A stretch of DNA of 64,000 nucleotides from Owenia fusiformis (taxonomy: Eukaryota > Annelida > Polychaeta > Sabellida > Oweniidae). Numbering within the stretch: position 1 is the stretch's first letter; every line of letters starts with the position of its first letter. The DNA is taken from positions 3,803,096 to 3,867,095 of the forward strand of contig CAIIXF020000006.1 of NCBI GenBank assembly GCA_903813345.2, in the 5' to 3' direction. The notes beneath the pieces were generated by a model. That model had not been told where the DNA came from, made no database searches, and saw only the letters and a program-made list of their open reading frames with translations. Of the stretch, positions 5,074 through 61,105 are shown one piece after another. The translations under genes were made by a program, and so were the position numbers.

Positions 5074-5652
5074 GGCGATAAAATATCACTGTTTTGGCCT
5101 CTTATCAACACAGTATTGCTTGAATAACGGTCATTGGTGATAAAAAAGGTAAAGAATAACAAGACCCTTCGAATGAGGTATGATTTGTCTCATATTTTTC
5201 AGAAATGGCTCCAGAATCGTCATTTTAAAATTTGAAATTTTCTGAGGTGTCTCATCTTGAGGAATATTTATTGAGCTACTGATCCTACCTCAAAATAATC
5301 TGGCCGGGATCTATGTCTGGAGAGATTAAAATCTCGCAAGATCTCTATCCATGCGAGAAAAAAGCATGGCTTCCCCCTAGATCAGAAGTTGGAGCAAATA
5401 AACAACAAGGTGTCAAAGTTACTCTCAAGAATTTTATTATTTTCGAAAATCAAACACAGTGGAAAGCGGAAATTCTAATTTCTGCAGAAGTAAATGTCGA
5501 AGTTACCCCATTTCTCATGTTAACGTAGTTTAACAAGTTAAACCCAATACCACGACTTTCATTTATAATCTGAATGTTCTTGTTGCCATGATTGGGTTTC
5601 ACTTCCATGCTATGCTTTCATTGGTTGCAAATTCTCACTATCAGTTATTATT

Positions 5653-5662
5653 AAAACGTGCA
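5653..5662. repeat. Left target-site duplication of the LINE
   Basis: AAAACGTGCA here equals 9240-9249 right after the A-rich tail of the LINE. The preceding bases make TT/AAAA, the preferred nick site of L1-type endonucleases. The A's could partly belong to the tail, but ACGTGCA cannot. Confidence 0.8.
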
Positions 5663-8600: not shown

Positions 8601-9168
8601 CTTTTATGAAATATTAAAAAACAAACGATCGGAAAAATGGTTTATGAAAAGGAAATGGGAACAAGAGTTTTGCTATGAAGCCAATGATGAAATAAATTGG
8701 CAAAACTTTTTCTCTACAAAAATAAGTTGTAAAGAAAAGAAAATAGGTAATTTCAACTTTAAAATAATCAACAATATTCTTCCTAGCCTTAGTGATTTAT
8801 ATATATTTGGTAAAAGTGAAACCTACAAATGTAGTTTATGTAATGAATTATGTACCTTGAAACATTTGTTATTTTCATGCTCATATTCTCAAAACATTTG
8901 GAAACATATTTATAATATCTCAGGGTTAAGAGTAACTTACAGAAAATTGATAATTGGTTATGATGGAAATGACAATCATACTGAATTTTTAAACTATTTA
9001 ATAAGTATTGTGTCATTTGTTATATATAAAACATATATTCAAGAACTGAATAATGGTATTAAGCGTAATTTTGAAGGCACTATTAAAACTTTAAATTTTG
9101 AAATCTGTACTCGTAAAAATGTATTTTTTAAAAACAAATGGAAACTCATTATACATTATTGTAATTAA
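5663..9168 (+). pseudogene. LINE ORF2 remnant: endonuclease, reverse transcriptase, Cys/His knuckle
   Basis: The endonuclease part shows NMYAPNS, AGDLNC (catalytic Asp/Asn), SRIDYIL and SDHKCLM. The reverse transcriptase shows IIFLDFQKAFDSIEW (first catalytic Asp), RQGCPVSAMAFIL and the YADDTSLF box. Near the end YKCSLCNELCTLKHLLFSC gives a C-x2-C...H...C knuckle. Two lesions are visible: a TAA at 7097-7099, after which the same frame resumes, and a frameshift near 8405-8437, after which the frame starting around 8416 runs to 9168. The first ~25 codons of the open frame beginning at 5588 are flanking DNA rather than LINE. The N-terminal endonuclease motifs are missing. The copy cannot make full-length ORF2 and no ORF1 is present. 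Confidence 0.9.
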
Positions 9169-9948: not shown

Positions 9949-9996
9949 TTTAAAGTTTAATGCTGTCATGTAGACCTGATTTCCCAAAGCAGCACC

Positions 9997-12900
9997 ATGA
10001 TGGCAAACTCTTTGAAGGATATGGATGGGTTACCCAGTAGACTAGAGAACCTGGGAATACAAGACGGTCAACCCACATTAGAGTCACAAGACAATGGAGT
10101 AAACAGACCACCCACCCCCGAATCACCTGGTGGTACAGAGTACAATGACTTTCGACGCAAGTCTCAAATTGATTTAGAAAATATACCAGATGTACATCAG
10201 TTTTATCCTGAAATAAAAGGAACTTATGGCAAAATGGCAGTGCAATCTCCAATCGATGAAGATAGACCTGAATCAGCATTTACAGACATCACAGTTGACA
10301 TTCATGATGATGACAATGAGTATTTGGAGAAGGTATCTGAGGTTGATGAAGACAGAGCAATGAGTGGCAGTATTGATCCAAAGGCAGCTCAACAAAAGTT
10401 CAGCGACCATCAGATTGTTGAGTACAGAGAAGCTGATGGTGCAACTGGTGGGGAAGGTGAACCAAGACAGTCTTTAGATGAAAAGGTTGGTAATATTTTA
10501 TTGGCACAACGCTATTAAGTTAAAGAATGGCGTAAACCATCGCCATAATGTTCAAAGCTGGGCCTTTTACCTAATCAATTTAATTAAGTCCTATGAATAA
10601 TTTACCATCTCGCAATTTTTTGAATGAAGAACTGGTTGAGAAATAATACTAATTTGTCATATTTAAGACTTCATATGTTACAGATTCAATTTTTTTTTCA
10701 GATTTAAAAGCTTTAATGTATGATTTTTCCATATAAGTGTAAATGATAAATATTTGTGTTACGTGTACATTTGCATCTTGTTTTGACAGGGAAATGAAGA
10801 AGGTGTATTTTCTACTGCTGTTGATGAAGATATGATACGTTTGGCTAAAGAAAGGATGAAAGAGCGAACTGATGGTTCAGTGTTTGCCACAGAAAGTTGG
10901 ACTGAAACTGCAAAGGAGGGCATTACTTTGCAGAAAATTGTGGATGCTAGAAGACAAGAACAGTAGGTTTCATTCAATTCATAATTGCTATCAGATATGG
11001 TTCCCCTTATGCTTTTCACAGTGTACTTAAATTGTTAACAAGATATATGATTGAGTATTTATAGTTTTATGCCATCAAGTTCTTTCCTAATTTCTTCTTG
11101 TATTTAATATGTGGAATGTAAAAGGGCTGGTCTGAAAATTATTGGAGAAAGTTATGGACCTCCTAACATAAATATATTGTGTCTATACAAAGTTCAATTG
11201 ATTTACTTTCAGTTATGAGAAGGCTCTAAAACTGATGAACGACAAAGAATATGTGCGGGCAATTCGAACATTAAACAAAGCAATCAGCCTAAACCACGGC
11301 CATGTAGACTACTACATTCAACGAGCGGAATGTTTCATCCAGCTTTGCGATTTCCAGTCAGCCATCTTGAACTACAAACACGCTTGTGTCCTTGAGCCTG
11401 AGAATATGGATTATTATTCAAGACTTTCTTTTATATATTATTTCCAAGGACAGTGTTTGTTTGATCAGAAGATGTATTCTGAAGCCTTGGAGGCATTCTC
11501 CCGGGCAGCTGAGATGAGCCCCGAGGTGTCTGGTTACCATACTAGAAGGTAAGATAAGTTGGATAACTAGCAACTCTTATTGAATGGAGCTGCACTTTAG
11601 TTTGCCTAAAAAGGTAGATAACAAACCATTGATCAGTTAAGAATTAACTTCTAAGACGCATGGACTTGTATGATAATATGTGCTTATTTGTACACTGAAA
11701 GAATAGAGGTTTCAATGTCACCCGTGTAGGTTATTTACCACGGGATGGGATCATAATGTCTCCCTGTGCTCTTACTAGTGTTGCTTTCATGTTTATATCA
11801 TTATCATGTGTTGGATTTCAGCATTGCTTGCCTGGCTGCTCTAGAGAGACATGGAGAGTGCCTGGCATTGGTCAACAAAAGATTAGAGGCTGAGCAGGAC
11901 AATCCTGACTTGTTTATTATGAGAGCAAGATTGCATGAGCTGTTCAGAAATGTAAGTATTGTCATCAGGGTCATTGGTGACTTGAATAGCAATACATGTA
12001 ATTAATGTGCATTATCATCCACAACTTTAGGGCAAAAATGTAAACATTTATGATATAGAAATATTGTTTATTCGAAAAAAGACAAAAATCAAAGGATTCT
12101 TAAATTAAGACATTAACAATGTGCTATGATAATGTTTAAACATGAATTGTAAAACCTGAGGAACACCCCTGTCAGTGGAACATGACCATTTGACCTCATT
12201 TTAAATGAACAATTGTAAGTGCAACACCTCCAAAGTGGAAGACTTTTTAAGGTTCTAAAGGTGTTCCACTTACACAGGTTCTCCTGTTATCTAAATGTAA
12301 AATGAACCTCCCTAAGTGGAACACTACTTACACTAGTTTAACTGTATATGTCAAGTTCTCATACTTAAACTGTATAATTATCTTGCAGAGAACATTGTGC
12401 TACTATGATGTGAAAGATGCCCTAGCTCTAAACCCTCAACATCCTGAGGCAATCAATTTAATGAAAATGCTCGATGAACGGGCCAAAGATCACCGTCAAC
12501 AAGCTTTGCAACTTAGCCTTCTGGGAAAACCAAGGGAAGCTTTACAGAAAATCTCAGTTGCCATAGAAACAAACCCTAGTATTGCTGGGCTGCATGTCTT
12601 AAGGTAAGTGCCGACTATTACTAGCTTAGATTAGCTGACTATTTTTTTTATTTTACTAGGGTAGGTCAAAGCTATTGGATTGGATTTAGGTCCTTCTAGA
12701 TATGTTCTTTTCTGTCAACCAACAACATGCAGTTGAAAGTTTCTCATGCCTCTAGGATAGTAGGTTTACATAAAAATAATCTTCATGCTATTTGCCCATA
12801 GACTGCAGCCAGAAATTAACACTTTGAAACCTGTAGTTTTACATGTAAGATCTTTACATTTCGTTTTGATACTTCAAGCTCTACAGTATCATCAACTGTT

Positions 12901-15900
12901 ATACAATTGTCCTGTTACTTTTTCTAGAGGATCTCTACATAGAAAACTGCAGGACTACAATGCAGCTATTGATGATTACCTCCTTGCATTGGACAAGACA
13001 GACCATGATGAGGAGTCGTCAACCTATCAGGAATCTCAGAGACAGTTACTCCTCACATATAATGACTTTGCTGTTGAGTGCTTCACAAAGGGCTTCTATG
13101 AGGAGGCTATTATATTACTTAACAAGGCTATCAAAGGGGAGAAGAGGGAGAAGGGGCTCTATGTCAACAGGGGAGGTGAGAACTTAATTTAGAGATAAAC
13201 ATGTACAACTTCCTCAAGTTTATGATTTAGCCGTAAGTTCAGGCGTATCATATTCACTGTACACCATTAACCAAATTCACCATAAACTCTGTAATTTGAT
13301 TTGAAGGTATGAATATTAGTGATGCTATTTCTTTGTAGCCAGTAATGATGAGCGCTTTGTGTCTACTTTTTAATCCACCCTAATACTCTGTATTTGTAAT
13401 TTCTCAAAATGAACAATGAAACCCATGTGCATGAAATAATATTCTAATAACCTAATGTGTAATTTTCTATTGCAGATTGTTTCTTTAAACAAGGGGAGCC
13501 CCACTTTTCCCTACAAGACTACCATCAGGCCTTAGAGATGGACCCCTCAGACCAGGGGGTCAGGGCCCGCGTTGCTATTGTACACAATGAATTTGGAATT
13601 ATAGAATATGCAGACAAGAACTATCCGGTATGAATTCTATCAGCTGTGGGGGATAAAAAGAGGAGAGAGTGGGATGATTTTTACACGTGGTTGCAAAATT
13701 AAAAAAAATATAAGATTAGGCTTAAGAAAAATTGAACTACATTCAAGGTCCAAAATCCATATGGACTTTTACATGTGATTGCAAAAATGAAGAAACATGA
13801 GATTAGGGTTAAGTAAAATTGAACTACAGTTTACATTTGAAGGTCTAAAATCCATATGACTTGCCCTGTTATATGACCAGTGACTATTGTAGTGCCAGAT
13901 AAAATAATATTAATATTATACTTTTTCTACTTTCACAATACTATGTTGTTTTATATTTCAGGAAGCTGATTCCAGATTTACACTAGCCATCCAGAATAAT
14001 CCCTCAGTGGGCAGATATTATGTGTCTCGGGCCAGGGCCAGGTATATGATGGAGGTCAGTGCCACCTATACTCACATATTTATTCTTTAGGAATCTTAGA
14101 TTGGATGATATTTTACAGATTTGTTACAGTGATATACATGTACAAACTGAATTGATCATAGATCAATCAAATTCAAATACATGTGATTGAAAAACTCAAT
14201 ATGATAATGTCTGGTTACTTTTGACTGAATGAACATTGCAAATGATCTAAAATCCTTAGCATGGGCATTGCACAGAAGAAATTGATTGCCTGCATAATTT
14301 AGATCAATTGAAATATCTGAGTGTCAAATTGCTATTATACTTATTTATTTTATACATGTGCATTTAACAATTTTACTATTGTATCATTTTCTTCACACAA
14401 TACTCTAAATAAGAAAACCTGAATTTTGAATATGAGCCATTTTATCAGAGATTGACATACAATATTTATTTTTAAAGAAATCCTATAATAAAAAGAACCT
14501 TGCAAGACTAATTATAGTTGTTTTATAATCGATCTACATGTATATTACACAGTCATATTGAAATCAAGAACTTACTTTTGCTATGTTCCTTTCCAGAATG
14601 GCTCAGGTGCAAGGGATGACATCCTCCTTGCTTTACATCTAGACCCCGATAACAAGGAAATATTCGGCATCATGTCACGATTGTACCCTGGTAAGACAAC
14701 TAGTGATGTCATACGTAGCCCAGCTGCTGAGAAGGCTCGTAGACAACTTCAGAACCTCGTCACGACTGCATCACCCGTGAGATTAAAGTCATTGGATTCC
14801 CAGAGTGTTACTTGGAATCAAGAAGCCAGTGTTGCTGATTATAAAGTTTGTTTAAATGAGGAAGAACTGGTGCTAGAATTGGTGAATGAAAAGAGGAAGG
14901 TCAGTATATTATTAATTCCATGCTTCCATTCCATGCCTTTAGTTTATTTTCCTCTATTGGTCTTAGAGCTTTTAACTTTTAGTCTAGCATCAAGTACCTG
15001 TATTTTCCTTTTCCTTTTTTGCATCCATTGTTCTCTAATTATTGGATCAGCAAGCCATAATTGTGTTTTACCCAGAATGCAACATTCTCTGCATACCTCT
15101 TATATAACTAAGGACAACCACATAGATCACCTTTCTCTATTAAGCACATGTTACTTGTGATGTAGATGATGTTATGGGAAGTACATGTATATAGGGCATC
15201 AGAGACTTGATGAAAGACTAGCTTGCTTAAACATTTAATTTAGCTTCAATCAAAACATCACCTATAACACATTCTAATTAGTTTCTTTTTATTTTATCTT
15301 ACTCCATTAATGTTGATGTTGCTGTTATTTCCTCAACAATATATTGAAAACTTTAAAAATCATATGCAAGATCCTAAATTGACTTGTGTATGAATGCTTT
15401 ATGAGCTATAAGTTCAAGTAATATACAAATGTTGTAAAATGAATCTTGCAATATTGAATAATTGCACAAAATATTCTTGGTTTGCAATAATTATGTTTTG
15501 AGGAAGGAACACAAATTAGATTTGGGAAATTATTGCAAAGTAATGAAAAATCAGCATCTTCCTCCGCTCATTATATTTTACCATACAATTTCTGCAGCAT
15601 CAATCACTTCATTCTCTTTAGTTTCTGTGTTTTCACTGTAGATTAAGTGTTGCCCTAGTATAAGCTGTTTTGCACTTAACACCTCTTTCCATTGCTTCTT
15701 AGATTAACAGAAATCTTAGAATTGCCTTTGACAAGAACAGAGATATCTGCAAGGGAATCATCCCTCCTGATTGGGAGTGATGTAGTGTTACTGTTGCTTT
15801 GTTTTGTTTCTGTGAGTGCTTTGTTTTGTGCTTTATTATTTCTTTCTTTTGTTTGTTTTTTTCTATTTGTTTTTCGTATCATTTTTACATTCTACCATAC

Positions 15901-17243: not shown

Positions 17244-18875
17244 ATGTCCCCACCACATAGTGTGGGGCCATATTGTCGGCCTAGGCGCGTCTGTCTGTCC
17301 GTATGTCCGTCTGTCCGTATGTCCGTCTGTCCGTCCGTCCGTCCGGCAGTTTTCTCCAAAACCGCTACAGATATCACCTTCAAATTTTCAGGGATAACTT
17401 ATGAGTGCATACAGATGTGGACGAAAAAAAATTAACTCGATACCTACTTCCTGTCGGCCATTTTGAAGTCAAATGCTAAAATCCTTGTCTGCAAACTTTA
17501 AGAAAAACGGCTTCACAGTTGCTTTTAAAACTTTAAGATCTTGTTCAGCTCACTTCATTCTAGATCTGATTAGGTTTTGGACCTGTTTGCTCAGTCATGT
17601 CAGCCATTTTGAATGTTTTAAGGAAAGTTAGCGCACGATAATACTTTGTATCATATTGAATGGTGTTTTTCAGTTTTCATACTTTAACTATTTAGTAGCC
17701 TTATAAATAATTTCAGGTGTACTTTGTTGTAAAAGCCTATATTATTGTTAACAGTAGTTATATGTGATAATTTTGTAAAAAGAAATCAGCAAAAACTCAT
17801 AATCACTTTTTTATTGTCGGCCATTTTGGATTTTTCCGTCCTAAAATCTTGTCTGTAAAGTCTTCACGTTTTCAGGTGAACCGTTTGATAGATCAATTTC
17901 AAATTTTCGGGGATGATTCTTAGTATGAAAATCTAGATCTGATTAGTTTTTGGGCATTCTGAGTAAATGTCAAGGCAGCCATTTTGGATTTTCCGTCCTA
18001 AAATCTTGTCTGTAAAGTCTTGTCTACGCATTTCCAGGTGAACCGTTTGGTTGATCAATTTCAAATTTTCAGGGATGATTCTTAGTATGAAAATCGTGAT
18101 CTGATTAGTTGTTGGGCATTATGGGTAAATGTCAAGGCAGCCATTTTGGATTTTCCGTCCTAAAATCTTGTCTGTAAAGTCTTGTCCACGCATTTCCAGG
18201 TAAACCGTTTGGTAGATCAATTTGAAATTTTCAGGGATGATTCTTAGTATGAAAATCTAGATCTGATTAGTTTTTTGGCATTCTAGATAAATGTCAAGGC
18301 AGCCATTTTGGATTTTTCGTCTTAAAATCTTGCCTGTAAAGTCTTGTCTATACGTTTTAGGTGAACTGTTTGGAAGATCAATTTCAAATTTTCAGGGATG
18401 ATTCTTAGTATGAAAATCTAGATCTGATTAGTGTTTTGGCATTTTGGGTAAATATCAAGGCAGCCATTTTGGATTTTCTGTTCTAAAATCTTGTCTGTAA
18501 AGTCTTGTCTACGCATTTCCAGGTTAACTGTTTGGTAGATCAATTTCAAATTTTCAGGGATTATCAATATCTAGATCTGATTAGTTTTTTGGCATTCTGG
18601 ATAAATGTCAAAGCAGCCATTTTGGATTTTCCGTCTTAAAATCTTGCCTGTAAAGTCTTGTTTACATGTTTTCTGGTTAATTGTGTGATGGATCAATTTC
18701 AAATTTTTAGGGGTGGTTCTTAGTATGAAAATCTAGAACTGACTAATTTTTTGGCATTCTGGGTAAATTTTAAGGTGGCCATTTTGGATTTTCTGTCCTC
18801 AAATTGTGTTGGTAAAGTCTTGTCTACTCATTTTTAGGATAACCATTTGACGGGATCACCCATAGGTGGGGACAT
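17244..18875 (+). mobile_element. TIR element with hairpin end, GC-rich tract and 160-bp minisatellite (element A)
   Basis: The left end is a hairpin (17244-17271): ATGTCCCCACC, loop ACATAGT, GTGGGGCCAT. It is followed by a CTGTCCGT-type simple tract (17290-17345). From about 17380 a degenerate array runs to 18850; its clear units carry AAAATCTTGTCTGTAAAGTC, AATTTTCAGGGATGATTC and GCAGCCATTTTGGATTTT with a period near 160 bp (starts near 17830, 17990, 18153, 18310, 18475, 18630, 18795). The right end is GGTGGGGACAT (18865-18875), the inverse of the left terminus. No open frame encodes a transposase, so it is non-autonomous. It sits between the convergent 3' ends of TTC16 and ANAPC5. Confidence 0.75.
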
Positions 18876-19472: not shown

Positions 19473-22400
19473 TCACACAACTGACAGGTCCAGACTAGAT
19501 ACTGTTGGGCATTGCTGGTCAAGTTTCTTAAACTTTAAGGCACACTGATTCCTCTCTGTAAAGTACCCTAATTCATTGTAGAGGCATGCCTGAAATATTA
19601 AGAAAATAGTGCAACAATCTGGGTGCTGTACTTGTGTTTCTACTGTCTAGATTTTGGAGTACAATATAGATTCTGAAATAATACAATACATAACAGAATT
19701 GCCAGAAAACGAAGGGGATCATCAGAATCTTTGAAAGTCATTTGCACATCATGCAACAAAAAAATCTTGAAGTAAGACTGACAAAACACATTGGCTAGAA
19801 ATCTGAAGGTAGAATTGGCTACCATATTGAAAGAACATTTTTTCATAGACTGCAAGATATAGAGGTTCTTATATGAGTACCTGTGCAAGATCGTCCATTC
19901 ATGATGAGCTTTAATAATTCTTCTTTATCGAGTTGAAGACGAGATAAAGAAACATTATCAAAGCGAGTCAAGAATGGATGATATTGCACAGGTATGAGTG
20001 CAAGAAAGTTATTCTCATATGATTCTGTATTATGCCATATTTTCACCATTCTATCATAAAACTGAGTGAAAAAAAGCTTCAAATCTTTCAATTGTTATGA
20101 CGTCATAACAATATTGAAGAAAATACATGGATACACATGGCAACAAAGCTCCATTGTTATGACGTCACAGCTTAGTTTTGTAGAATTAGCATGAATACTC
20201 ATAGCAACGGATATGTGTGTTGTTGATGTTTATAGACCACATGTCACAAGTAAATCTCATCTTGCATGTGTGACCTTTTAGGATGAAAAATGGCAATATC
20301 TTGCATGGGGTAAAGATGGATGTATCTTTATTAGTCATATGAGAAATCCTACTTCTTAATGTAATGCTTCAGACTAAAACTTATGTGTAAATGCAATGTT
20401 TCAAGCAAGAACATGAAAATGTAATTTTTCAGGCAAAACTTACTTGTAAATGCAATGTTTCTTTAGCCCTGAAGTGAGCTTCTAGAACTTCATATCCACT
20501 GAGCACCCCATTCAACATGTTCACAGCAGTTAGCAGAGCTGAAATAACAATACAAAAGAAGTAGGATGAGCTTGAAGAAATTTTAAAACATTGTAAAATA
20601 TGTTCATCCAAAGAGATCCTATAATAAATATAAAAATAGAAAATAATGGGGTGGATAATCAAAAGAATTCCAAAGTCTGTTGACCTTTTACGAAACATCA
20701 TGATTTCTATGGTCTACATTTATATTTAGGATATCCTGGCAAATACCCCAAAACAGTAAATTTTCATGAGATTACCTGATTTTTTCTTCTCTATGTTCTT
20801 CCCTTCAGCTGCTGCCACAAGACATTTAGCATAGAGTCTGTTAGTTCTAGATCTGTCCAACAGGGAGCCCTGGGCTAGGATGGTGACCATCACACTTTCG
20901 ATTAACTCAACACCATGTTGAGCCATGCCTAGTTGCAACTGGAGATGAGACAAAATGTTGAGATAGCTTGTCATCACAGTGCCATATAAAACCGAAATAT
21001 GTAGTTACTGAACCCAAAATTAGAACATTATGTCCCCTCTAACAGAAGTGGAACAGGAAATATATAGAGGATATCCTATGATTTATGAGTGATATGATTT
21101 TTATCCACGAATGGATATGATATCTGCACGAGCGAGCGTAGCGAGAGAGTGCAGATATTAATATCCATGATGAGTGGATTAAAATCATATCATATTCCAT
21201 AGTTAAAGTCATCATCAGAATCGTCGGAAATTAAGTGATTTAATTTGAATTTTCCAAACGATCCGGTGATGTTGATACTTAGCCTCGTTTTGAGTCTGAA
21301 GTAGCAAAAATCCATAAGCCATTGCATACTGCGCCGTATGTCATGGCTAAAAAACCGTATGCTATGGTTAAGTAAAAATTTGTCAAAAATATCATATTTT
21401 ACCACTGATTACAAAAATACTGTTTTTATTTTCACATGTTATCCTATGAATATCATGCTAACTATGGAATAAAAATGGTTTTCTTCTGTAAGTGCAATAC
21501 AATGTAGCTTTTAAGCACTTTCACTGTCATAAATATTGTCTTGCATTTTGCTGACCAATTTGAATAAGGACAACAAGACATAATAATAAATGATGCACTT
21601 GAAGAAGAAATGGTCGTCTTATAAATTACACAGCATGCATAACACCTCATCAGACCTTGGAACTATTTATTAGGCATTAGTTTGAGGCAATATCACCTTA
21701 AAACACCTCAACATGAACCTCACTTACAGAAATCTACTACCGATATATAGTTTTAAGTTTCCTGATTGTGCCAACGTCCCTTCTATATTCAATACTAAAT
21801 GTGGGTTTACAATGCAATACCTGTACATATGCGATGTATACAGTAACCATAGCAGCTAGGTATGTGAAATAGTGTTCATTGCAGATTGTAAGGGCAGCCA
21901 GGAATGAGTCTAAGGCCAAGCTGGGTTGTTCTGTTTGGCAGTGGAGCTCCCCTATAGCTAACAGCACCCTGGCAATAGAAATACAATATTGTAACTCCTA
22001 GCTTGGGTGTTATCTAATAGCATGTTGAACTATATATTATTTCAATGTATAAGACACTAATACTCAATTATGTAACTGTACATCCATTATAATTTTGAAG
22101 AGATAAAAAAGATCAAATGTATTCAGAATTTGATATTTTGAGCTTTTTTACTCTTTGCTGTACAACACGTCAAAAAATAACACATCTTCACTTGGCTACA
22201 GCTCCCACTGTCACACTCAAAATGGAACCCAAACTCTTCCCCTGAGAATCAGGATATTGATACAGAGTCATATCTCTGATCTCTTCTTATGTACTATTAA
22301 AATATCAGTTTTACCTGACTGTATATTCCGGATGACAGCTCTCTTTTTGAGAATTGCTATTTTCTTTTAAGCTTGTCAGCAAATCAAATGCTTTTGTGGT

Positions 22401-25400
22401 TTCACCATTGGCCTTCATCAGTAAAGCTTTTCTGAAATGGAGAAAGTTTGTATGTTTGCAAATGACAAGTTAAGTTGTTAAATTCTTCAAAGTTTTATGC
22501 AAACAGAAAATGTACCATGGCCATATATGGTAAATTGGCTCAGAAGAGAAAGCGTTTTCAATGAAATGCAGGGATTCTTTTATAAACTCTGTCTGTAAAG
22601 TCTTAAGCATGATGTAAATTGTAATATTTTTGGCGCATGTCAACCCAATTTCTGACCAAAGAACCATATGAAATGATTAACCATAGTTTTTGCACAACTT
22701 CTGCATCATAATTTAATTTTGTCATCTTCATGTCATTCTACAAGGACTGCATATTTCAATACCTATAGCTTGCCTCTTGTTGATTTAGCGCAGTCATAGT
22801 AAGTACAATTTGCTCAGCTTCTTTATACTTCCCATGATGCATTGCTCTGTCAAACAATATCGTCTGCTCACACTCCATCCACACTGATGCATGCTGGGAT
22901 TTTTGTGGGAAACGTTGTTTACAGCATTGTAGAATGTGTTGACTCTCTGTATATTGTCCCTAAACAAAAATAAGAAATCAGTGTCACAGATACGGCAAGA
23001 GCTGAAGAACTTCGGTAAATTGTGACCATATGACATTAAAACAGAATTATAGCCAAAAATGAACAACTCACTTATCAGAGCACCTCTGAATGTGAAATAT
23101 TTTTGTCGCAATTTTGTTATCTCCCTTTGACTAACATTAATAAGAAACCTTGAAATATGAACATCTGTTAATCGAACACTTTTGGCTGTCCCTATAGAGT
23201 TCAGATTAGGCAGGTTTGACTGTTTATGTTTTTGAATAATTACAGTATGCCTATGTATAAATAGATTGAAACTTCTGTCTCACTGAGATACCTGATAACA
23301 AATTGTTCTTAGAATTCATTGAAAAACATAACTAGTACCTGACTTGCAAAGTGTGTTGCTAGGTTACAGAGTACCAGGCATCCAGCTTCTCCATTGTGAT
23401 AAATGCCTGCTTCCATGGTATTGAGATTCAGTAACAATTGACTACATAGTGATGCCATCTCCCTGTTGCCATAGAGATGCCATAAAGCTGTTTTCTGTGC
23501 ATAGCTTATTGCCATCAGGTCTACCTGGGAGTGCTGGCAGTTAAGAATATCACTTTTCATCAGATAGTCGAAAATACTGGAGGATAAATGATAAAAATAT
23601 TCAAGTTAGAGTTTTATGAATCATATTTTTGAATTAAGAAACTGTCATGAAATGAATTTAACCTTTCTGTTATATATTATCAAAAACTAGGCGACCATGA
23701 AGTTAGAGTGACTATTGTACGATTGAATCATAATTTCTGTCAGGGCTCATCTCAAAACTGCACATAATTATTTGCATAATCCTTGTTCTATCTGCTAAAC
23801 AAAATATTCTATCTAGCCTAGTGAGACAAGCCTTTTGGAAGTGTAGATCAGTCCAAAATATATCTTTTCAATTTTTAGTTAACATATAACACACTCTTTT
23901 AATTACATTTGCACTTAAGAAAAACTGATTATGTGTAGAATTTTAACAAAATCATTTGAAGATCCTTACATTTGTCACTCACCTGGATGGTTTAGCTTTA
24001 GATATGGCATTATGTTTGGCAAAGAACTGCACCCCAAGTGACACAAGATAGTGCAAGTTTGTTTCTGAGACACCACGGCTACCAGGCCTCTCTGCGCTGT
24101 TAGTTGTGCCTGGTTCCCCAAGTATATGCAACCAGCCCTGGAAAAATACAGTAAAACATGTGTATGGGAACACCTCTCTTATCTGAGCACTTATCAATGT
24201 GAACACTTTTCTCTGTCCAAATATTGCATTTCCTCAATGAACTTAAATGTTAAGAAACTTGAAATATGAAAACTTGCTTATTAGAATACTTTAGCCTGGT
24301 CCCAGTGGCATTTGGATTCAACAGGTTGCTTGAAACATAAAGGGTATTTCATTTTACTAGTGATAAGAAAGTTCTTCAGACAAATTATGGACGATTCACC
24401 TAAACTATTTAAAAACATGCGAAGTATTTGACAATTCATCTACAAAGTATGGGGTGGGAAGCATTTTATCCATGAACATAATTGATTCATAATCATGTTC
24501 ATTATTTGAAAATATAAAAGGATTGAAACATAGTGAGACTCAAATTACAGGTTGTCCAATACTCAATGTTATGCCTTATACCCTGTTAGACTATATTTCA
24601 ATGTTTAAGTGTTGTCTCAAAGCTATGTATGATTCACTAGTATTTGCATATTAACCTACCATAGCATGCATGAGGCAGATGTTGTCATTGGTCTCCTGGG
24701 CAATTCTGATTGCTTCGTGTAAAGTATTTGTATATTAACCTACCATAGCATGCATGAGGCAGATGTTGTCATTGGTCTCCTGGGCCACTCTGATTGCTTC
24801 GTGTAAAGTATTTGTATATTAACCTACCATAGCATGCATGAGGCAGATGTTGTCATTGGTCTCCTGGGCCATTCTGATAGCTTCATGTAAAGTATTTGCA
24901 TATTAACCTACCATAGCATGCATGAGGCAGATGTTGTCATTGGTCTCCTGGGCCATTCTGATAGCTTCATGTAAAGTATTTGCATATTAACCTACCATAG
25001 CATGCATGAGGCAGATGTTGCCATTGGTCTCCTGGGCCATTCTGATTGCTTCATGTAAAGTATGTGTATATTAACCTACCATAGCATGCATGAGACCGAT
25101 TTTGTCATTGGTCTACTGGGCCATTCTGATAGCTTCATGTAAAGTATTTGCATATTAACCTTCCATAGCATGCATGAGGCAGATGTTGTCATTGGTCTCC
25201 TGGGCCATCCTGATTGCTTCATCTAATGAATTTGTATATTAACCTACCATAGCATGCATGAGGCAGATGTTGTCATTGGTCTCCTGGGCCATTCTGATTG
25301 CTTCATGTAAAGTATTTGCATATTAACCTACCATAGCATGCATGAGGCAGATGTTGTCATTGGTCTCCTGGGCCATTCTGATTGCTTCGTGTTAAGTATT

Positions 25401-28400
25401 TGCATATTAACCTACCATAGCATGCATGAGGCAGATGTTGTCATTGGTCTCCTGGGCCATTCTGATTGCTTCATGTTATGTATTTGTATTCCCTTATAAA
25501 AAAAACAACCATTTTTTCCGAAATTCAATGGTTTCATTGCACATCATGTAACCATCATTTCAACCTTGAAGATCAAAGGAAAAATCATTATATCAACCAT
25601 TCAAAACCATTGTGCAACCATTGAGAAACCATTGCAAAACTATTACAACCATTACCCATTGAAATTAACAGTTACAATTGATTGCAACCATTGATTGGGA
25701 ACTGCAACTATTGCAACCATTAATCCTCAAAATGAATGCTCATGGGCAGACCTGTAGCCAGCTTTTGCACTTTTGACAAATTTACAAGGGGATTCATATT
25801 TTATAACTATGGCCAAAAATTGGCCAAAATCACTTGAAAAGTCCTCAATATGGTGAAAAACTGCATGAATTTGAAATAATGTTGGGCTATGGCTATGTTG
25901 ATATTATTAGTATGTTTTTTTAAGTAAGCATGTCTGTAGTCTGCAGTCTATCACACTCTTCTCTCATTAAAGATTTTTTTTTGGACTTTGTGTGTCTCGG
26001 ATCTTGTTCTCAATGACAAGTCTGACGTCACTTCCAGAACAACAAAAAACATACACTTATTTGTATATATCATTTAATCTAATCCCTAGGATTTTAAACA
26101 CTTATTTCTATGACTATTGCAATCACTTATCAGGTATCGTTTTTAAGGAGAATGAAAAATGCAGAAATCTTGTAAGAAAATAAGGATTATTTTTTGTTTC
26201 AATTCAATATTGTTTAATTTTGCTGGCTTATTTTCATTAAGAAAATTGTAGAAATACAAATTAAGATTTCACATTATTGAATTCAGATAAGGTACAAAGA
26301 CAGAGCAGCAACAGTTGCACAGACAGAGCGGCAATGGTTGAAATGCTAATTATAACCATTGAAAAGCTAATTATAACCATTGAAATGCTAATTATAACCA
26401 TTGAACAGCCAATTAGATAAAGTTATGTTTTGATAGTTTAACAAAATCATTACAAATTAATTCTTTTTCTAAGAATTATTTTTGTCTGAATAATTTATTT
26501 TTGAATTCCCCCTACCATAATAATGACACAATCATAGTAAATTAGATGAGATTCACATTAAGATTTTTGAAGCCAGCTATGGTCTTGATGAATTCTCTTT
26601 TTTCTAGCGATAGTTACTTAAGTTCATAATACAATTTTGAGACATATCCAACTTCAAGTTCATGCTCATAGGCATAAAACCATGTCTAGTAAAAGGAAAT
26701 ATCATCTATTCAAGTGTTTAAGATATTTCCCTTTCAGTCATTATGATTAAAGTTTAATCCAATTAGTAATTAATATTTTTTGATTTGTAAATGATATTGA
26801 AGAAAAGACAATCAATCCGGCTCTCGCCTAATCCAAAGTATAAATACAAGGATGTTGATGTTTCAAAATCATGTTTTGGAAACATTTTCAGTTTAATCTA
26901 CTTAATTGTTGTAATAAGACTTCTTTGATATTGAAGAAGCAGTTATTTTGGCACTAGCTTAATCCAAATCATAAATAAGAGGCAGGAAATACAATCTTTG
27001 ATGTTTCATAATATGTATGTATGTACTTTTAGTCAGAAACATTTTTTTGTTGAGACAGGAGAAAAACAGAAAATTTCCACAGAACGTTTTGTTGTATTGT
27101 TCAGTAAAACTGAATGAATCAAGAAGGAATTTCCAAATAAACTACAAGAATGACCAGGGCCAAAGATGAATACACTTGATTCTCTTCAATAAAATAGAAA
27201 TACTATCTCTATGTACATGAACTTGAAGTAATATTCAGTACCAAAAATGAATAAACCTTATTCTTTATAGAAATAATATGCCTATGAGAATGAACTTGAA
27301 GTCATATTCAGTGCCGAAAATGAATAAACCTTATTCTCTTCAATTAATTAGAAATAATATGCCCATAAACATGAACTACTGTATTTTGAAACATAATAAT
27401 GCATTCAATTTACTTGTATGTTCTTCATGTTTCAAATTGTCTCATTCGTAAACTAAATAATTTCCACAATATGGTTGAAAATAGTTGCAACCATTTGGTA
27501 AAATGCAACTTAAACAATCAATGGTTTGTAATGGTTGCAAATGATTCCATAATTTCAATGATATGCAATCAAAGTTTGCAATGTAATGGTTGGAAACCAT
27601 TTCAATTGGTTGCATTAATGGTTATGCAATGTTTTGTAATGGTTGCACAATGGATTTTAACGGTTGAAATTCGGAAAAAATGGTTGTTTTTTTTCCTAAG
27701 GGATAGCATGCATGAGGCAGATGTTGCCATTGGTCTCCTGGGCCATTTTGATTGCTTCATGTAAAGTATTTGCATATTAACCTACCATAGCATGCATGAG
27801 GCAGATGTTGTAATTGGTCTCCTGGGCCATTTTGATTGCTTCATGTAAAGTATTTGCATATTAACCTACCATAGCATGCATGAGGCAGATGTTGTCATTG
27901 GTCTCCTGGGCCATTTTGATTGCTTCATGTAAAGTATTTGTATATTAACCTACCATAGCATGCATGAGGCAGATGTTGCCATTGGTCTCCTGGGCCATTT
28001 TGATTGCTTCATGTAAAGTATTTGCATATTAACCTACCATAGCATGCATGAGGCATATGTTGTCATTGGTCTCCTGTGCCATTCTGATTGCTTCATGTAA
28101 AGTATGTGTATATTAACCTACCATAGCATGCATGAGGCAGATGTTGTCATTGGTCTCCTGGGCCATTCTGATTGCTTCATGTAAAGTATTTGTATATTAA
28201 CCTACCATAGCATGCATGAGGCAGATGTTGTCATTGGTCTCCTGGGCCATTCTGATTGCTTCGTGTAAAGCTGCCATGGCTTCATTCCTATTAAAATAAT
28301 TTATTTATATGTAAGAAATCTGGTTGGAAGGTCCTGTCAGTTTGGATATACTGTAGTAAAGATCAATAGGATTCTCATAAAGTGAGGATTAGAGAATTAG

Positions 28401-31400
28401 AGGTATTGATAGGAATGCAAATATTTTCATAGCATTTGTAAAGCAAAATCATATCATTTCATAAAACTAGAAAAACAGCAACTCAAAGTATCAGACAAAA
28501 ATGAAAGTTTTTATAAATGAAAGAATACCTGTGACCGAATCTGTAGTGAAGCGCAGCAAGGTTTAATGCAGCATATCTGAATGACCTCCCATAATCCTCC
28601 TCTTTAACCTTTGACCCTGCATTTGGATTGGTCAGTTGATGGCGATCAAAGTAATGGTACAATGAGTTTATAGCGCCACAGTATTCATTAACCCTTAGAT
28701 TGTTCAAATAGCTGAGAAAGTGCTGAAACAATGATAAATATCCATTTTATAAATGATGATATTTAACTAATATATTTAAACTGAATCAATAAAAACAAGT
28801 AAAACAACTGATATATTTGTGTTATTTATTTGAGAGAATTCCTATAAGAGGAATTAGTAAATGATTTTCCTTTGTGTGACCAAAGTGACTATTCAGTTCT
28901 AATAAAAGCAAATAAACTTTAGACAATAATAATTATTTGTCAAACTCACTGCCTCTGTGAGATCTGAGTTTGATTTGAGTAGTTCTCTGATCTTCTGTTG
29001 AAGGTCCCCTGCTGATAAGGCTTCACTTTCATTATGCTGAAGTAGCATTGCCTACAAATATATAGTACACACAAAGTTAGTTATCTAGCTTAGCCTGCAG
29101 TAGAAACAGTATTGTTATATCATAATATAATTGAATTGTGAGAAGGTAACCGACTCATTGAGATAAAGTAACTCAATTATTTGATAATGTAATTGGCAAT
29201 TTGTGATAATGTAACTGAATTGTTGTAATAAAGTAGCTGAATCATTGTATGAAGTAACTGAATTGTTGTGAATTGAATCTGACTGGTTGTGATTAGGTGA
29301 CTGAATTGTTGTGATAAAGTAGCTGAATCATAGTATAAAGTATCTGAATTGTTGTGAATTGAATCTGACTGGTTGTGATTAGGTGACTGAATTGTTGTGA
29401 TAAAGTAATTGGGATGTGATAAAGTAACTTACCTGTTGTGATATGAAATACTCTGCCTGCCTTTGGGAGAATGTTCCATCAGACATCACTCCAGGAGATC
29501 TACAAGAGGTCATCATCAAATCAAATGACTGTATATTATTTGTAAATTGATTTAGTAGGTAACATTAACAAGTGACTAGGTTTGTTTAAGCCTTAAGTCT
29601 CACATCAAATATCACATATATTTTCTAATAACCATCCAACAAATACTTTATCAACCCTGTGAATATTCAGAGTGACGGCTCGATCAGCCACAGTATTTCT
29701 CTCTAAGTCTAAAACTTGGAAGTTGGCTTGAAATCTGTAGACAAGATTTATCAGGACTCCTTGAATACAAAGAGTGACAGATATATTAGTCAAAGAATTT
29801 CACTAAAAATCAGTCTTACTTTTTCCATGGTTAGTAATATTACCATGATAAAACAAGACACAGACGTGAACAATATCGTACCTAAACACAGCATTGTGGT
29901 CTTGTTGACCAAGAAAGCAAGATGGCCGCAGAAAAGTTAATCAGCTCTAGAACTTATCACTGTGTAACATATGTAAAAATTTGAACGGTTTGGCTGGAAA
30001 CCTGTAGACAAGTCTTGAAAGTGAAGATTTTAGGAAGGAAAATCCAAAATGGCCACCTTAAGATTTACCCAGAATGCCCAAAAACTAATCAGTTCTTGAC
30101 GTTGATATGTAGAAACATCCCTGAAAATTTCAGATGAATCCCTCAAATGGTTTGGCTGGAAACCTGTAGACAAGTCTTGAAAGTGAAGATTTTAGGACGG
30201 AAAATCCAAAATGGCCACCTTAAGATTTACCCAGAATGCCCAAAAACTAATCAGTTCTTGACGTTGATATGTAGAAACATCCCTGAAAATTTCAGATGAA
30301 TCCCTTAAATGGTTTGGCTGGAAACCTGTAGACAAGTCTTGAAAGTGAAGATTTTAGGACGGAAAATCCAAAATGGCCACCTTAAGATTTACCCAGAATG
30401 CCCAAAAACTAATCAGTTCTTGACATTGATATGTAGAAACATCCCTGAAAATTTCAGATGAATCCCTCAAATGGTTTGGCTGGAAACCTGTAGACAAGTC
30501 TTGAAAGTGAAGATTTTAGGACGGATAATCCAAAATGGCCACCTTAAGATTTACCCAGAATGCCCAAAAACTAATCAGTTTTTGACGTTGATATGTAGAA
30601 ACATCCCTGAAAATTTCAGATGAATCCCTCAAATGGTTTGGCTGGAAACCTGTAGACAAGTCTTGAAAGTGAAGATTTTAGGACGGAAAAATCCAAAATG
30701 GCCACCTTAAGATTTACCCAGAATGCCCAAAAACTAATCAGTTCTTGACGTTGATATGTAGAAACATCCCTGAAGATTTCAGATGAATCCCTCAAATGGT
30801 TTGGCTGGAAACCTGTTGACAAGCTGAAAAGTGAGACCCCGCCCACCCGCCGCTCGCCCGCCCGCCGCTCGCCCGCCCGTCAAGCTGACTACAATATCGT
30901 ACCTTTTGTTAGGTACGATAAAAAAACAAGGCATTGATTGTGCAAAAATCATCACCATTTGATGCAGACACCAACAGCTGATCACCAACCACCATCACAA
31001 AAAACGTAGACCACAAGAATATGTCACCACTTTTTGGTGGTGACATGAAAATTGAATATTAAATGAGAAATATGGCAAAATAAATGAAAAATGCTCTGGT
31101 ATTCATGAAGTTAATTTATCTACCTGTCAATGTCTTTATCTTCATGTTGACTCTCTTCATCCTCGAGGTCCATCGATATGTCAAGTTCAGTGTCAGCCTC
31201 GTTGAGGGAGATAGACAGCCTGGCCTGGTGGGAATCTGGTCGCCAGCCCTCATAATACCTCAAGTAGGCTTTGTAGAGTGCACCGACTTGGCTGAATGAC
31301 AGTTTGTCAAACATCAGGATCATCCTTCTCAGGAATAGTCCTATAGAAGTGTAAAAGATTGATACAGAGATCACTGACTAAAGTGATGGCCATAATAAAA

Positions 31401-34400
31401 TGGAAACATTCTAAAATAAGCTAACATACAATAGAGTAACTTGTGCAATTAACCAGTACAGAACAGGTAACATCGCTAAAATATATACCTAAAACACTGC
31501 TTTTGTTCACCAGAGGTTCTGACTCTGTAAATAGATTCTCTTGGAGGGTCTGAAAGTAGTCCATTAAAGCACCAATACCTTCTTCCTGGAAATGAATCAA
31601 CCTAAAAACACAAAAATAATCATTAATGTTTGTTTGTTTTTTAGAAAATGTAGTAAATACATGTAGGTGTTGTCCAGGATATGAGAATATGTCCAGGGCA
31701 TAAGTTATCAAGAGGCTGAGTAGTCCAGGGAATGAGTTGTCATGGGAATTAACTATAAAGGAATGAAAAGTCCAGAGAATGAATTGCCCCAGAAATAAGT
31801 TATCAAGTGGACGATTTGTCCAGAAAATGAGTTCTTCAGGCCAGGAATGTGTTGTTCTGGGAAAGAATGAGTTTTTCAAGGGATAAGTTATCAAGGGGAT
31901 TTGGACTAACTAATTGGAACGGAGGACTTAAATGAGGTGTATAGAAATTACATACCTATGAATGAAATATTCCAGCATCTTGGGTTTTGATATCTCCTGT
32001 ACTTTGTTCATCAAGGATTTCAACTCCATATCTGGACACTGGAAATTAAATGAAATGTAACATTTATAGAAATCAAACAAATCTTTCACAATAACATTCT
32101 ACCATATACATGTAATGATAGCTTATAAAATTAACACTGGAAAATATTTTACAGACCCAGTCACTAATTTAGCAAAAAATTCCAAAAGTACCTAAATTAA
32201 TTGAAACTGTGAAACATACACTAGAAAAGGAGAATTAAGTGTTGATGATTACAAACCCATCAAATTTACTAGCAATAGAGGCTAAGTCATACACAGTGAG
32301 AGAAAAGTGTGGTGTGCAATTATTAACAAGGCATTAACATGACAAAATGTCACCACCTACTGTAGTTGCTCACAATATTATGAGTTCAAACTTAAGTCAG
32401 ATTTGAATTTCTGAGAACTTGTAAAGTCAAATTTGAACTTCTGAAAAGATGTAGATGATTTTGAAAAAAAAATTTGAAGCAAGTTGAAAACAGACCTTTT
32501 TGACCTTTTTTGTCCTTGAGAAGGTCATTAAAGGTCAAATGTCAAATCTAAAGTCAGATTTGAATTTCTGAGAACATGTAGATGATTTTGAAAAAAAAAT
32601 TAGTCAATTTGAAGCAAGTTGAAAAAAGACCTTTTTGACCTTTTTTGACCTTGAGAAGGTCATTGAAGGTCAAATGTCAAATCTAAAGTCAAATCTAAAG
32701 TCATATTTGAATTTCTGAGAACACGTAGATGATTTTGAAAAAAAATTTAGTCAATTTGAAGCAAGATGAAAAAATACCTTTTTGACCTTTTTTGACATTG
32801 AGAAGGTCATTGAAGGTCAAATGTCAAATCTAAAGTCAGATTTGAATTTCTGAGAACATGTAGATGATTTTGAAAAAAAAATTTAGTCAATTTGAAGCAA
32901 GTTGAAAAAGACCTTTTTGACCTTTTTTTACTTTGAGAAGGTCATTGAAGGTCAAATGTCAAATCTTAAGTCAAATCTAAAGTCAGATTTGAATTTCTGA
33001 GAACACGTAGATGATTTTGAAAAAAATTTTAGTCAATTTGAAGCAAGTTGAAAACAGACCTTTTTGACCTTTTTTGACCTTGAGAAGGTCATTGAAGGTC
33101 AAATGTCAAATCTAAAGTCAGATTTGAATTTCTGAGAACATGTAGATGATTTTGAAAAAAAAATTTAGTCAATTTGAAGCAAGTCGAAAAAGACCTTTTT
33201 GACCTTTTTTGACTTTGAGAAGGTCATTGAAGGTCAAATGTCAAATCTTAAGTCAAATCTAAAGTCAGATTTGAATTTCTGAGAACACGTAGATGATTTT
33301 GAAAATTTTTTTAGTCAATTTGAAGCAAGTTGAAAACAGACCTTTTTGACCTTTTTTGACCTTGAGAAGGTCATTGAAGGTCAAATGTCAAATCTAAAGT
33401 CAGATTTGAAGGTCAAATGTCAAATCTAAAGTCAGATTTGAATTTCTGAGAACATGTAGATGATTTAAAAAAAAAATTTAGTCAATGTGAAGCAAGTTGA
33501 AAAAAGACCTTTTTGACCTTGAGAGAAGGTCATTGAAGGTCAAATGTCAAATCTAGAGTCAGATTTGAACTTCTGAGAACATGTAGATGATTTAGAAAAA
33601 AATTGAAGTCAGTCTAAACAGTATTTGTTAAGTTATAGGAAGTTGTAAGAAATTGTTACAGACGCCGGACGCCAACCGCCAACCACCAACCGCCGGACGC
33701 CGTCGCAAAAAAACGGAGACCATAACAATATGTCACCACTTTTGGTGGTGACATAATACATATACAGAGTGTAAAGAAAATATGGATGCACATCTACCTG
33801 TAAAAGTTCTAAAGTTGTTATCATAAAATCTCTCTTCTCTTTCTCTGTGTATTCCCACATGTCCATCTCATCTGAAGTCATCACTTGACTCTTCAATTCG
33901 ATCGCTTTTTGCTGCAATTGTATTACATCATGAGCATTCTATTTGATACATGTGTTGCTTTTTGCTGCAATTGTATTACATACAAGTACATGTGCTGCTT
34001 TTTGCTGCAATTGTATTACATACATGTGTTGCTTTGGTATGCAGAAAATGAGAACTAATCTCATAGTTTATGCAACTTACTGAAAACATCTCTGAGATTC
34101 ATAACCACTATAGCCATACTGCCATATACATGTACATTTAATCTTGTAATATTGATTTTAAATTGGAAATACTGCTCAGTCACTAACCTTAACAGCGCAA
34201 TATTCTCGGATCAGTGTGACAAGGGCTATCCTATGAGGAGTCACATGTTCCTTCAAGGCAGGCTTGTCTCTGTAGCCCAATACAAATAGGTTGGTCCTTA
34301 AACAAAAATGCATGCAAAAATGTATGAGTAATATGGCTAGCTTGACCAGTGCTATCCTTTGATGATTCACATTCAGATAATAGCAGTCCACATTGACAGA

Positions 34401-39300: not shown

Positions 39301-42300
39301 AAAATCTAATAATTTATGAACGAATAGTTCACGAGGCGCCAACATGATCAAAATTTTTCCTCACTATAATTATGAATACGGAACTTTTAAAAGTGCAGAT
39401 ATTTAACCGTTTTCAACCTTCCGTTTTCATAACTTAAGTGGAGAAGTATATCGATGATTGTGTCGTCTTATGATTATTCGATCGCAAACGTTACGATTTT
39501 CTGAAACATATGTTGCTGCCACACAGTTTTGCCAAAAATGTCGTGGACATTCTACTTACATCTTGAGAATTCATGGAAAAAGTAAAATCGTAGCTGCGAC
39601 ATTTTGTTACGTAAATGGATCCGTTTACGTAACATTTTGAAGAGTTCCTCCACAGTGTATTCATCATAAGTTTAGTTTACCTACTCACCACTCTCTTCAT
39701 AAGTGCAATCGAAACTAAATAAGTATATAATGTCAGGCATAAATCCTCATCATGTGAAAGTCCTTGTTCAAAACACATATCACACAAACTATCATTGCTA
39801 TAAAAATGACTTTTGGTTAACTTGTATTGTCCAATCCAGATCAGATGTAGGTTACCTCGCCTGTATACTCTAGTAATCATAAGTCTCTACTGATATATTT
39901 TCAGTATACATACAAGGATCGATCAAAAAGTTTCTTACCGTTGGCTCTAGGTTTTATAATAAGAGGAGTTGGATGCTAAAACTTTAACAAGAGACAGGGT
40001 AGTTAGTTTGCTTGAAACTCTATGAGTTTCATATAATTATAATTTATATGAAACTCATAGCTGTAGAGTTTCAAGCAAACTAACTACCCTGTCTTGTGTT
40101 AAAGTTTTAGGATCCAACCCCTCTTATTATAAAATCTAGAGCCAACGGTTAGAAATGTTTTCATCTACTCTTGTATAGTAAATAAGAACTAAATAACACA
40201 AATGTCTTTGTAAAACAAATTGCTTGTCACAGAAGACATGTTTAACGTGTAATTATTGATATACAGGGTGATCCAAAAAGGTAACCTCAACAAATCTTTA
40301 TATTTCAGTCATCCAGTATGGGTTTAAGATCGTATTTCGCACAATTAAATCTTATTCAATATAAGTTTCATTGGTCTACTCAAAAACGGTGAACATTTCA
40401 TGGTCATTTTACCAAACATGCCCGAAATGCCGGTCTTGTCTTGAAAGCAAACTTGAACGTATCTGGTGAAGTTTTCTGATAACACACTCACAAATATCTT
40501 GTGTAATTTCTCTCATTTTCCTTCTACTCTATTGTTTTAGTGAAGCCACAAAGGTACAATTTTGGGATCAGATTGTGTTATTTTGGTATGTTTTGGCATT
40601 TGGAGCATGTTTTTTAAAATGACCATTTTGGAGCATGCTTTTTAAAATTACCATTACGAGCTTGATCATTCGAAATAGACCAATGAAAGAACACTGGCCA
40701 AATATGGCTTAAAACCCATATTAGAAGACTGAGTTATTAAAACTTGTTTGGGTTACCTTTTTTGTCTGACCCTGTATAACCTAACAAGTCTCAATTGCTC
40801 TATATCCTCTGAAAATCATGACCTGGAGTGTACGTATTCATATTTTCCTGTCTTGCCATGGTACAGACCCGGCCTCGCAGTTACACCAGTGCCGGAGGAG
40901 ATTGCGTTGTTTCTTGCCTTCCCGGTTGTCACGATTCGGGCCCCCCTGTCTTTGTGTATCTTCAAGATTTCTAGCTCCCCTCCAATGTCCAGCTGGGTGT
41001 GCGTAATCACCATGCTGGTTGATGAGTTGGTTTTGCATTTGGGGATACCTCATGCGCATCAGATTGTGTAGTACCATACAGGTCCGGACAATCAACCGAA
41101 CAGTTGAAGGAGCATGGCCCATTGTCGTCAGTAACACTTGAAAACGGTTCGCCATGATCCCGAAAGCGTTTTCTACACAGCGACGTGCCCTTGACAGACG
41201 GTAGTTGTATATACGCTCTTCCACGTTCCTTCCTTTGCCACCATACGGCTTCATCATGTTTGGTGTGAGGGCGAATGCATCATCTCCTATAAAGAAATAC
41301 GGTACCTCCTGGTTGTCGTTTGGGAGTGGAGAGGGGTCGGGGAGATTTAGGAAACCATCAGCTATGCCCTGCTTGAGCTCTGAGGCATTATAAATTTGAG
41401 CGTCAGACGCTGCCCCCTTCCCTAAAAATACAGAACAGTTGCATTTATGAAATGAACAGCGTTCAGTTTCACCTTATTAAAAACGTGCCATGCGCTCTAT
41501 AGAACATTTTGAAGTATTCTTTCTAACCATGTTTCTAGAAAAATTCAAAAACGTTGTGAGGCTTTAACGTCATACTTTATCTTGACATTTCACAAATTTT
41601 CCAGGGAATGTTGATGCTCGCTCTAGGTTTAATTTGATTCACCGATCGTCTCTCAAAATCCAAAAACATTTACGAAATATTGTCTTCAAGAAATATGTTG
41701 TTTTGTGTAAATTATGTAATGGTCGTCTAAAACAAATAATTTTATTTTTAAACTGACGAACTTGCGATGTGTAACTGAATTTCATTGAATTAAGAGACGT
41801 TGTGTTTATAAATGATCTCTTTTTGTCATGAAACACTTACCACCAAGATCGGCCCAGATAAACTTGTAGTCAGAGTCTACCAACGCCATTAACACAACAG
41901 AGTAGAAACCCTTGTAGTTGTAGTATAGGGAACCCGACTTTGCAGGGCATTTCATTGCGACATGGTTCCCGTCCAGGGCACCTATGGTGTTTGGGAAGTT
42001 CCAGCGAGAACCCGTCAGCTATCGCTTGCCATGCAGCAGGAGTGGTCGGGGGCATCATCACCTCATCCAAGTACTCATCCACTATCGCTTGACACACTTC
42101 TCTGATGATAACGGAGATTGAGTTATGGGGTATCCTCAAGCTGTATTGAAGATCTCTGTACTTCGCACCCGATGCCAGATGACGGAGCGTCACTGATAAC
42201 TTTAGGCCTGATTCGAGAGCCTCTCGTAGCCTGGTATGTTGTTTGGTAAGGCGATGCTCAACTCTGTTCAATATTTCATCAAACATCTCCGGAGGCATCC

Positions 42301-60740: not shown

Positions 60741-61105
60741 GGGTCTCATCTTCCATGTAGCTGAGTTGATATATCCACATTGATATTTGTAGAGTCAGTT
60801 GACACTGTAGTCATATATCCACATTGATATTTTGTACAGACAGTTGACACTGAAGTCAGTTGACATTGCTTAACATTGGGTCTCATCTTCCATGTGGCTG
60901 AGTTGATATATCCATATTGATATTTTGTACAGACAGTTGACACTGAAGTCAGTTGACATTGCTTAACATTGGGTCTCATCTTCCATGTAGTTGAGTTGAT
61001 ATATCCATATTGATATTTTGTACAGACAGTTGACACTGAAGTCAGTTGACATTGCTTAACATTGGGTCTCATCTTCCATGTGGCTGAGTTGATATATCCA
61101 CATTG
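60735..61105 (-). repeat. Tandem copies of the TRIM-NHL gene's 3' end
   Basis: GGGTCTCATCTTCCATGT starts at 60741, 60878, 60971 and 61064, so periods are 137, 93 and 93 bases. The copy at 61064 is the real end of the coding sequence (coding YQLSHMEDETQC and stop). The three others repeat about 45 coding bases, the stop codon and 3' UTR. Because 93 is a multiple of three, an unrelated frame of 126 codons stays open across the array; it is not a gene. Confidence 0.85.

Follow-up and report, generated by a model that had tools for sequence, protein, structure and literature searches.

How does a gene settle on one splice donor when the intron that follows opens with many further copies of it? 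The question is raised by a locus of the annelid Owenia fusiformis, lying in a window of 64,000 nucleotides (assembly GCA_903813345.2, contig CAIIXF020000006.1, positions 3,803,096 to 3,867,095; the window is this whole stretch, and all positions below are counted within it). In the ANAPC5 gene, read on the minus strand, the 3' end of one exon, its donor and the beginning of the intron are repeated in tandem 16 more times downstream of the real exon. The explanation that we consider likely is a neutral tandem duplication spanning the exon/intron boundary, which would be tolerated by the gene, the first donor being chosen despite its matching competitors. The material is a single DNA sequence.

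The source exon and its array

ANAPC5 looks functional and the source exon undegraded, because 11 consecutive exons (31601 to 21821), spliced via the first donor at 28205, give a single open frame that matches human APC5. The resulting model of 543 residues aligns with residues 108-632 of the human protein (E 5.5e-120), in agreement with the identity proposed in the first-pass annotation of this DNA, and also matches the Pfam ANAPC5 domain. The source exon together with its two neighbouring exons reaches E 6e-35, and the alignment of the source exon to the human protein shows no gap across either junction. It was numbered exon 10 in the annotation and is the eighth exon of the present model, which may lack 5' exons; its own acceptor, ATAG|GAATG, is present in none of the array copies, as the annotation had stated. 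The exon had also been said to have become a minisatellite; the real exon is in fact intact and in frame. The sizes of 13 exons of the gene range from 67 to 238 nt, and the acceptor of the exon that follows the array (24137-23983) has the top score among the 15 acceptors placed. The components of the locus are the following:

28206..28287, minus strand: real ANAPC5 exon of 82 nt, encoding NEAMAALHEAIRMAQETNDNICLMHAM from its second base onwards; the exonic part of the repeat unit derives from its last 65 nt
24138..28205, minus strand: array-bearing intron of 4068 nt, followed by the exon 24137-23983
28187..28270, minus strand: founder unit, 65 nt of exon and 19 nt of intron, with donor ATG|GTAGGT and first intron base 28205
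27767..28186, minus strand: five complete extra copies adjoining the exon, donors intact, first intron bases 28121, 28037, 27953, 27869 and 27785
27704..27766, minus strand: sixth extra copy, with 63 nt of exon part; its donor was lost where the inserted element adjoins, and a remnant of 9 nt of intron part lies across the element, at 25481-25489
25490..27703, unstranded: inserted element of 2214 bp with terminal inverted repeats of ~40 bp (TCCCTTA..TAAGGGA), which splits the array
24641..25480, minus strand: ten more copies, nine with intact donor; the remaining one, with GA for GT, has its junction at 25163

Tandem arrays were called with Tandem Repeats Finder (TRF), which returned the 84-bp array as two blocks, at 24639-25486 (10.1 copies, 94% match) and at 27703-28270 (6.8 copies, 96% match). 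On the minus strand the unit consists of 65 nt of the exon 3' end, the donor and 19 nt of the intron start (CTTTACAYGAAGC...GCATGCTATG|GTAGGTTAATATRCAAATA); the intron part amounts to 21 nt if an ambiguous CT is counted, and not to the 25 bases previously given, while the length of 84 bp is divisible by three, as noted before. The reading of the units confirms the 16 extra copies (5 + 1 cut + 10, at 24641-28186) that had been described downstream of the exon. The donor ATG|GTAGGTTAATA, said to be kept by every copy, is exact in 14 of the 16; ATG|GAAGG, with GA in place of GT, stands in the copy whose junction lies at 25163, and the one at 27701 has lost its donor and ends at the inserted element. 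Thus, an exon-derived unit offering identical competing donors, which was the core of the annotation, is indeed present, with 14 exact extra copies. The mean divergence is 4.9% over 84 nt (16 units, counting the founder but not the cut copy), a likeness far beyond chance, from which the array may be judged young. The exact 26-base array pattern gave 0 matches in viral contigs. The GC (guanine plus cytosine) content of the DNA examined is 34.8%; amphioxus genomes, which enter the comparison below, are higher in GC.

As regards the origin of the array, the exon breakpoint GCAG[CT]TTACACG and the intron breakpoint AATA[CT]AGTGAA meet in the sequence AATA[CT]TTACA. Past the last unit the intron continues as ...CAAATACTAGTGAATC, the exon ahead of the unit reads ...GCAGCTTTACACG, and the joints between units read CAAATACTTTACA. 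A single tandem duplication across the ANAPC5 exon/intron boundary, with a two-base CT overlap, would explain these joints and could have been the starting event; the overlap itself may be due to chance. Ordinary repeat turnover would then have amplified the unit to 17, and a transposon-like insertion would later have split the array. Column 8 of the unit is C in the far-end units 24743 and 24659 and in the inner unit 25331, as in the real exon, and T elsewhere, a pattern that fits turnover within the array; adjacent units show no significant excess of similarity (P=0.16).

The inserted element looks like a non-autonomous DNA transposon, its terminal inverted repeats being 40 bp long and 92.5% identical, with a second inverted pair of 76 bp and 80% inside the termini (both by self-BLAST). 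No target-site duplication was recognised at its flanks, no second copy was found within the window, and the unit lacks 12 bp at the point of insertion. The presence of units on both sides of the element suggests that the array predates the insertion.

Donor choice and its consequences

Since the original exon and donor stay at the upstream end of the array, the normal mRNA can still be produced. Splicing would most likely commit to the first donor, because it pairs with a real acceptor to define the 82-nt exon and is transcribed first, and the later donors would be mostly silent. Each of the 14 later intact donors leads to Val-Gly-stop (TAA) two codons past the exon. Their use adds 84 nt or a multiple of this to the exon, or extends it across the element, so that the first extended exons would be 166, 250 and 334 nt long. 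As every later intact donor brings this stop, donor choice alone cannot yield a longer APC5, and the transcripts that result would probably be cleared by nonsense-mediated decay. The annotation had left two outcomes side by side, an array that is tolerated or splicing that makes variant APC5: the former fits better and has published precedent, while the latter draws little support from 14 donors that all end in Val-Gly-stop.

Donors and acceptors were scored with a small position matrix built from the gene's own sites in a leave-one-out manner, by which real sites are handicapped, if anything. In all, 15 donors and 15 acceptors of ANAPC5 were placed; one further acceptor and the 5' end were not located and stay outside this count of 30 junctions. 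The duplex of the founder donor with the 5' end of U1 (-8.8 kcal/mol) is the third strongest among the 15 donors of the gene, whereas its matrix score is low, and the two measures thus contradict each other. Folding of the array RNA revealed nothing unusual (z +1.4); with an exposure of 0.25 against 0.19-0.35 in the copies, the first donor does not stand out as more accessible, and no structure hiding the extra donors was seen. A second GT lies 4 nt past the donor, both at 28205 and in the intact copies (GTAG|GTTAAT), and could act as a tandem, frame-shifting donor.

The variation among the copies bears on whether they are maintained. The 16 extra copies carry 21 variant types, 17 of them in the 65 exon columns and 4 in the 19 intron columns; of the exonic types 7 are silent, 8 are missense and 2 create a stop, and coding constraint on the copies is not seen in these types. 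The nine donor columns carry 1 variant type (P(<=1)=0.28). The copies thus appear to be under no clear constraint.

Several observations weigh against a tolerated array in which the first donor prevails. The matrix score of the founder donor is 3.6, the second lowest of 15 (leave-one-out); the GT shifted by four bases reaches 5.5, and 3.6 is also exceeded by several intron GTs unrelated to the donor. Strength alone, therefore, does not explain the choice of the first donor. Moreover, the 5' exon context has been copied too, so that nothing local marks the true donor, and when donors are duplicated the intron-proximal site is often preferred, which would predict misuse. Finally, columns 51-77, a stretch of 27 around the donor, carry a single variant (scan P=0.025, post hoc), the sole result leaning towards importance of the donors and to be taken as a weak hint.

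This last stretch would also be expected if the extra donors formed a regulated off-switch, in which some transcripts use a later donor, meet the stop and are destroyed, tuning the level of APC5. The 14 of 16 donors that are intact and pair well with U1, the in-frame stop of every extended form and the sizes of the first extended exons, near the 67-238 nt of the gene's own, are all compatible with such a device, and a survey of C. elegans associates an intronic minisatellite family with regions of alternative splicing. The conservation of the donor itself is non-significant, however, and one copy is without GT and another is cut; we regard regulation of this kind as unlikely. Even less room is left for splicing of the copies as micro-exons. 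Internal AGs, taken as acceptors, would give micro-exons of 53, 46, 36 and 33 nt, the last two in frame; from CCCAG|GAG to the donor there are 36 nt, in phase and stop-free in the consensus unit, and a longer APC5 with inserts ETNDNICLMHAM can be imagined. The lancelet PGBD5 annotation has a predicted exon in such repeats, which lacks support from expressed sequence tags or mRNA and was omitted by the authors. The four exonic AGs score -3.0 (53 nt), -3.6 (46 nt), -3.7 (36 nt) and -12.9 (33 nt, GGAG|ACC), all below the 15 real acceptors (-2.7 to 13.7), although the matrix was built from few sites and the pyrimidine share at these AGs, 35-53%, overlaps the weakest real acceptors (41-82%). A fifth AG, in the intron part and 80 nt before the next donor, scores 1.5, lower than 13 of the 15 acceptors. 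The annotation had considered only the 53-base insertion, one of which breaks the frame and three of which restore it: its arithmetic is correct, but the AG concerned falls just under the lowest real acceptor, and the in-frame inserts of 36 and 33 nt were overlooked. The stop and missense variant types among the copies (two and eight) also speak against a coding role, and we hold the micro-exons to be very improbable.

An assembly artefact has to be weighed as well, since repeats are often misassembled, and a globin mirage (a boundary-spanning array, see below) in the lancelet draft is described as aberrantly assembled. Nevertheless, the copies differ from one another and hold private variants, the array is split by a separate 2.2-kb element, and three other junctions of the same gene show like repeats, so an artefact seems very unlikely, though the copy number may be wrong even if the array is real. 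The tolerated duplication, with the first donor in use, remains the reading that we prefer. If that donor is used almost exclusively, the locus represents a natural experiment on splice-site choice, in which 14 further donors, each preceded by its own 65 nt of near-identical exon context, are indistinguishable from the true one by local sequence; exon definition or the order of transcription would then settle the choice.

Boundary-spanning repeats in other genomes

The closest counterparts are the mirages of amphioxus, minisatellite-like tandem duplications of exon/intron boundaries described in the globin genes BflGb6 and BflGb9 and in Adh3, TnC and PGBD5 (PMC3087553, PMC3902484). The name was coined in cephalochordates, and mirages are further characterised by length instability between haplotypes, by somatic instability and by homogenisation within the cluster that spares its edges. 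Splicing is reportedly undisturbed by those in globin, Adh and TnC genes (PMC3087553, PMC3902484); in particular, the Adh and TnC mirages are stated to generate no aberrant mRNAs, and lancelet PGBD5 is added as a case (PMC3902484). By its anatomy the ANAPC5 array would be classed as a long mirage: the boundary-spanning minisatellite unit covers an exon/intron junction of a gene with an open, APC5-homologous frame, and splice signals occur in many, not all, units (14/16). Both systems share tandem copies across the boundary beside an intact real exon, effects on donor and acceptor sides alike, and occurrence at several genes or junctions. They differ in dimensions, the ANAPC5 unit being of 84 bp with 16 extra copies, against 6 and 3 units of 150-160 bp in two BflGb6 haplotypes and units of 10-72 bp in Adh3; unlike the mirages described there, the ANAPC5 array also lies in another gene, is split by an inserted element and stands in DNA of 34.8% GC.

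A minisatellite in human IFI6 similarly offers several donors past the normal one, and two downstream repeat units are reported to serve as donors, giving three mRNA species (PMC4526556). In ANAPC5 no series of in-frame isoforms comes from the donors, all 14 later ones running into the stop, which excludes an IFI6-like protein series from donors alone. Furthermore, human genes in segmental duplications hold internal tandem repeats at exon-intron boundaries that are said to cause novel introns (PMC2812944). The likeness to ANAPC5 lies in variable boundary repeats able to change gene structure; unlike those genes, ANAPC5 has no evident new intron. Among the matches listed in the literature searched, no prior report of the ANAPC5 array was found, and those on oyster and scallop made no mention of a minisatellite.

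Other junction repeats and the surrounding window

The 30 placed junctions of ANAPC5 were scanned for local copies with 28-mers, allowing <=8 mismatches within 3 kb and covering gapless, direct copies only. Local tandem copies occur at 4 of them, the main array included, namely at three donors and one acceptor; the other three are:

29136..29443, minus strand: second boundary-spanning array, of degenerate 22-bp units (TRF period 22), which takes in the donor 29432 and 11 nt of exon
33898..34035, minus strand: third case, at acceptor 33911 (TTGCAG|C); its two copies, which both keep CAG, lie upstream with junctions at 33964 and 34004
20358..20461, minus strand: fourth case, at donor 20443, with one downstream copy (junction 20384) in which GT is changed to AT

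At donor 29432 there are 3 copies with <=8/28 mismatches against 0.06 expected, and GT is absent from the donor register in all 3. In the 22-bp array as a whole 9 copies reach >=15/22, whereas 500 mononucleotide shuffles gave 0.02 on average; GT stands in the donor register, in other contexts, in 3 of these 9 looser copies, and AG|GTAAG in 0 of 9. The four junctions are apparently at different stages of decay, and as such bear on the proposal that duplications of this type seed new introns. Preferential loss of the donor in copies was considered and is not seen, given the 3 of 9 looser copies with GT still in register.

A special seeding of arrays at junctions was likewise considered. Local repeats make up 37% of the intron positions of the gene (the arrays themselves included); the share is 18.8% where intron positions at a distance of 30-130 nt from a junction are taken, 4.6% in exon interiors and 16% in the window. 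The 4 of 30 junctions (13%) do not support special seeding against the intron background of 18.8% and 37%: this share is about what is expected from repeat-rich introns reaching exon edges, and there is therefore no sign of junctions attracting duplication. A wider proposal would join the four junctions of varied ages into a recurrent boundary duplication extending beyond cephalochordates, with the ANAPC5 array as its young extreme; this array, with its 14 extra donors, would have been retained because transcripts terminating in it restrain APC5 in a copy-number-dependent way. We consider this combination quite improbable.

Repeats are frequent in the gene in general, local repeats making up 32% of the ANAPC5 span and 11% of the remaining window. 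Two related 162-bp satellite arrays (17819-18856 and 29984-30834) lie in opposite orientation and are ~74-79% alike, one within an ANAPC5 intron and the other just beyond the 3' end of the gene, and a 147/282-bp tandem array occupies 32422-33410 in another ANAPC5 intron.

Elsewhere in the window, an open reading frame (ORF) with an Isochorismatase domain is found at 1433-2032 (minus strand), with 29- and 89-bp tandem arrays nearby (15-1031). ORFs that by eye resemble a LINE (long interspersed nuclear element) extend over 5534-9165 (plus strand), with RVT_1 in 7100-8434, and are followed by a likely tetratricopeptide-repeat gene at 9961-15157 (plus strand), with TPR in 11202-11549 and its other exons placed by eye; from 6.4 to 15.8 kb TRF reported no array start. 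A DDE_Tnp_4 transposase fragment, which we take to be Harbinger-like, lies at 40841-41473 (minus strand), and the ORF beside it (41873-42364) has no Pfam match. Finally, an ORF of 756 residues with NHL repeats, TRIM-like by eye, is located at 61059-63326 (minus strand).

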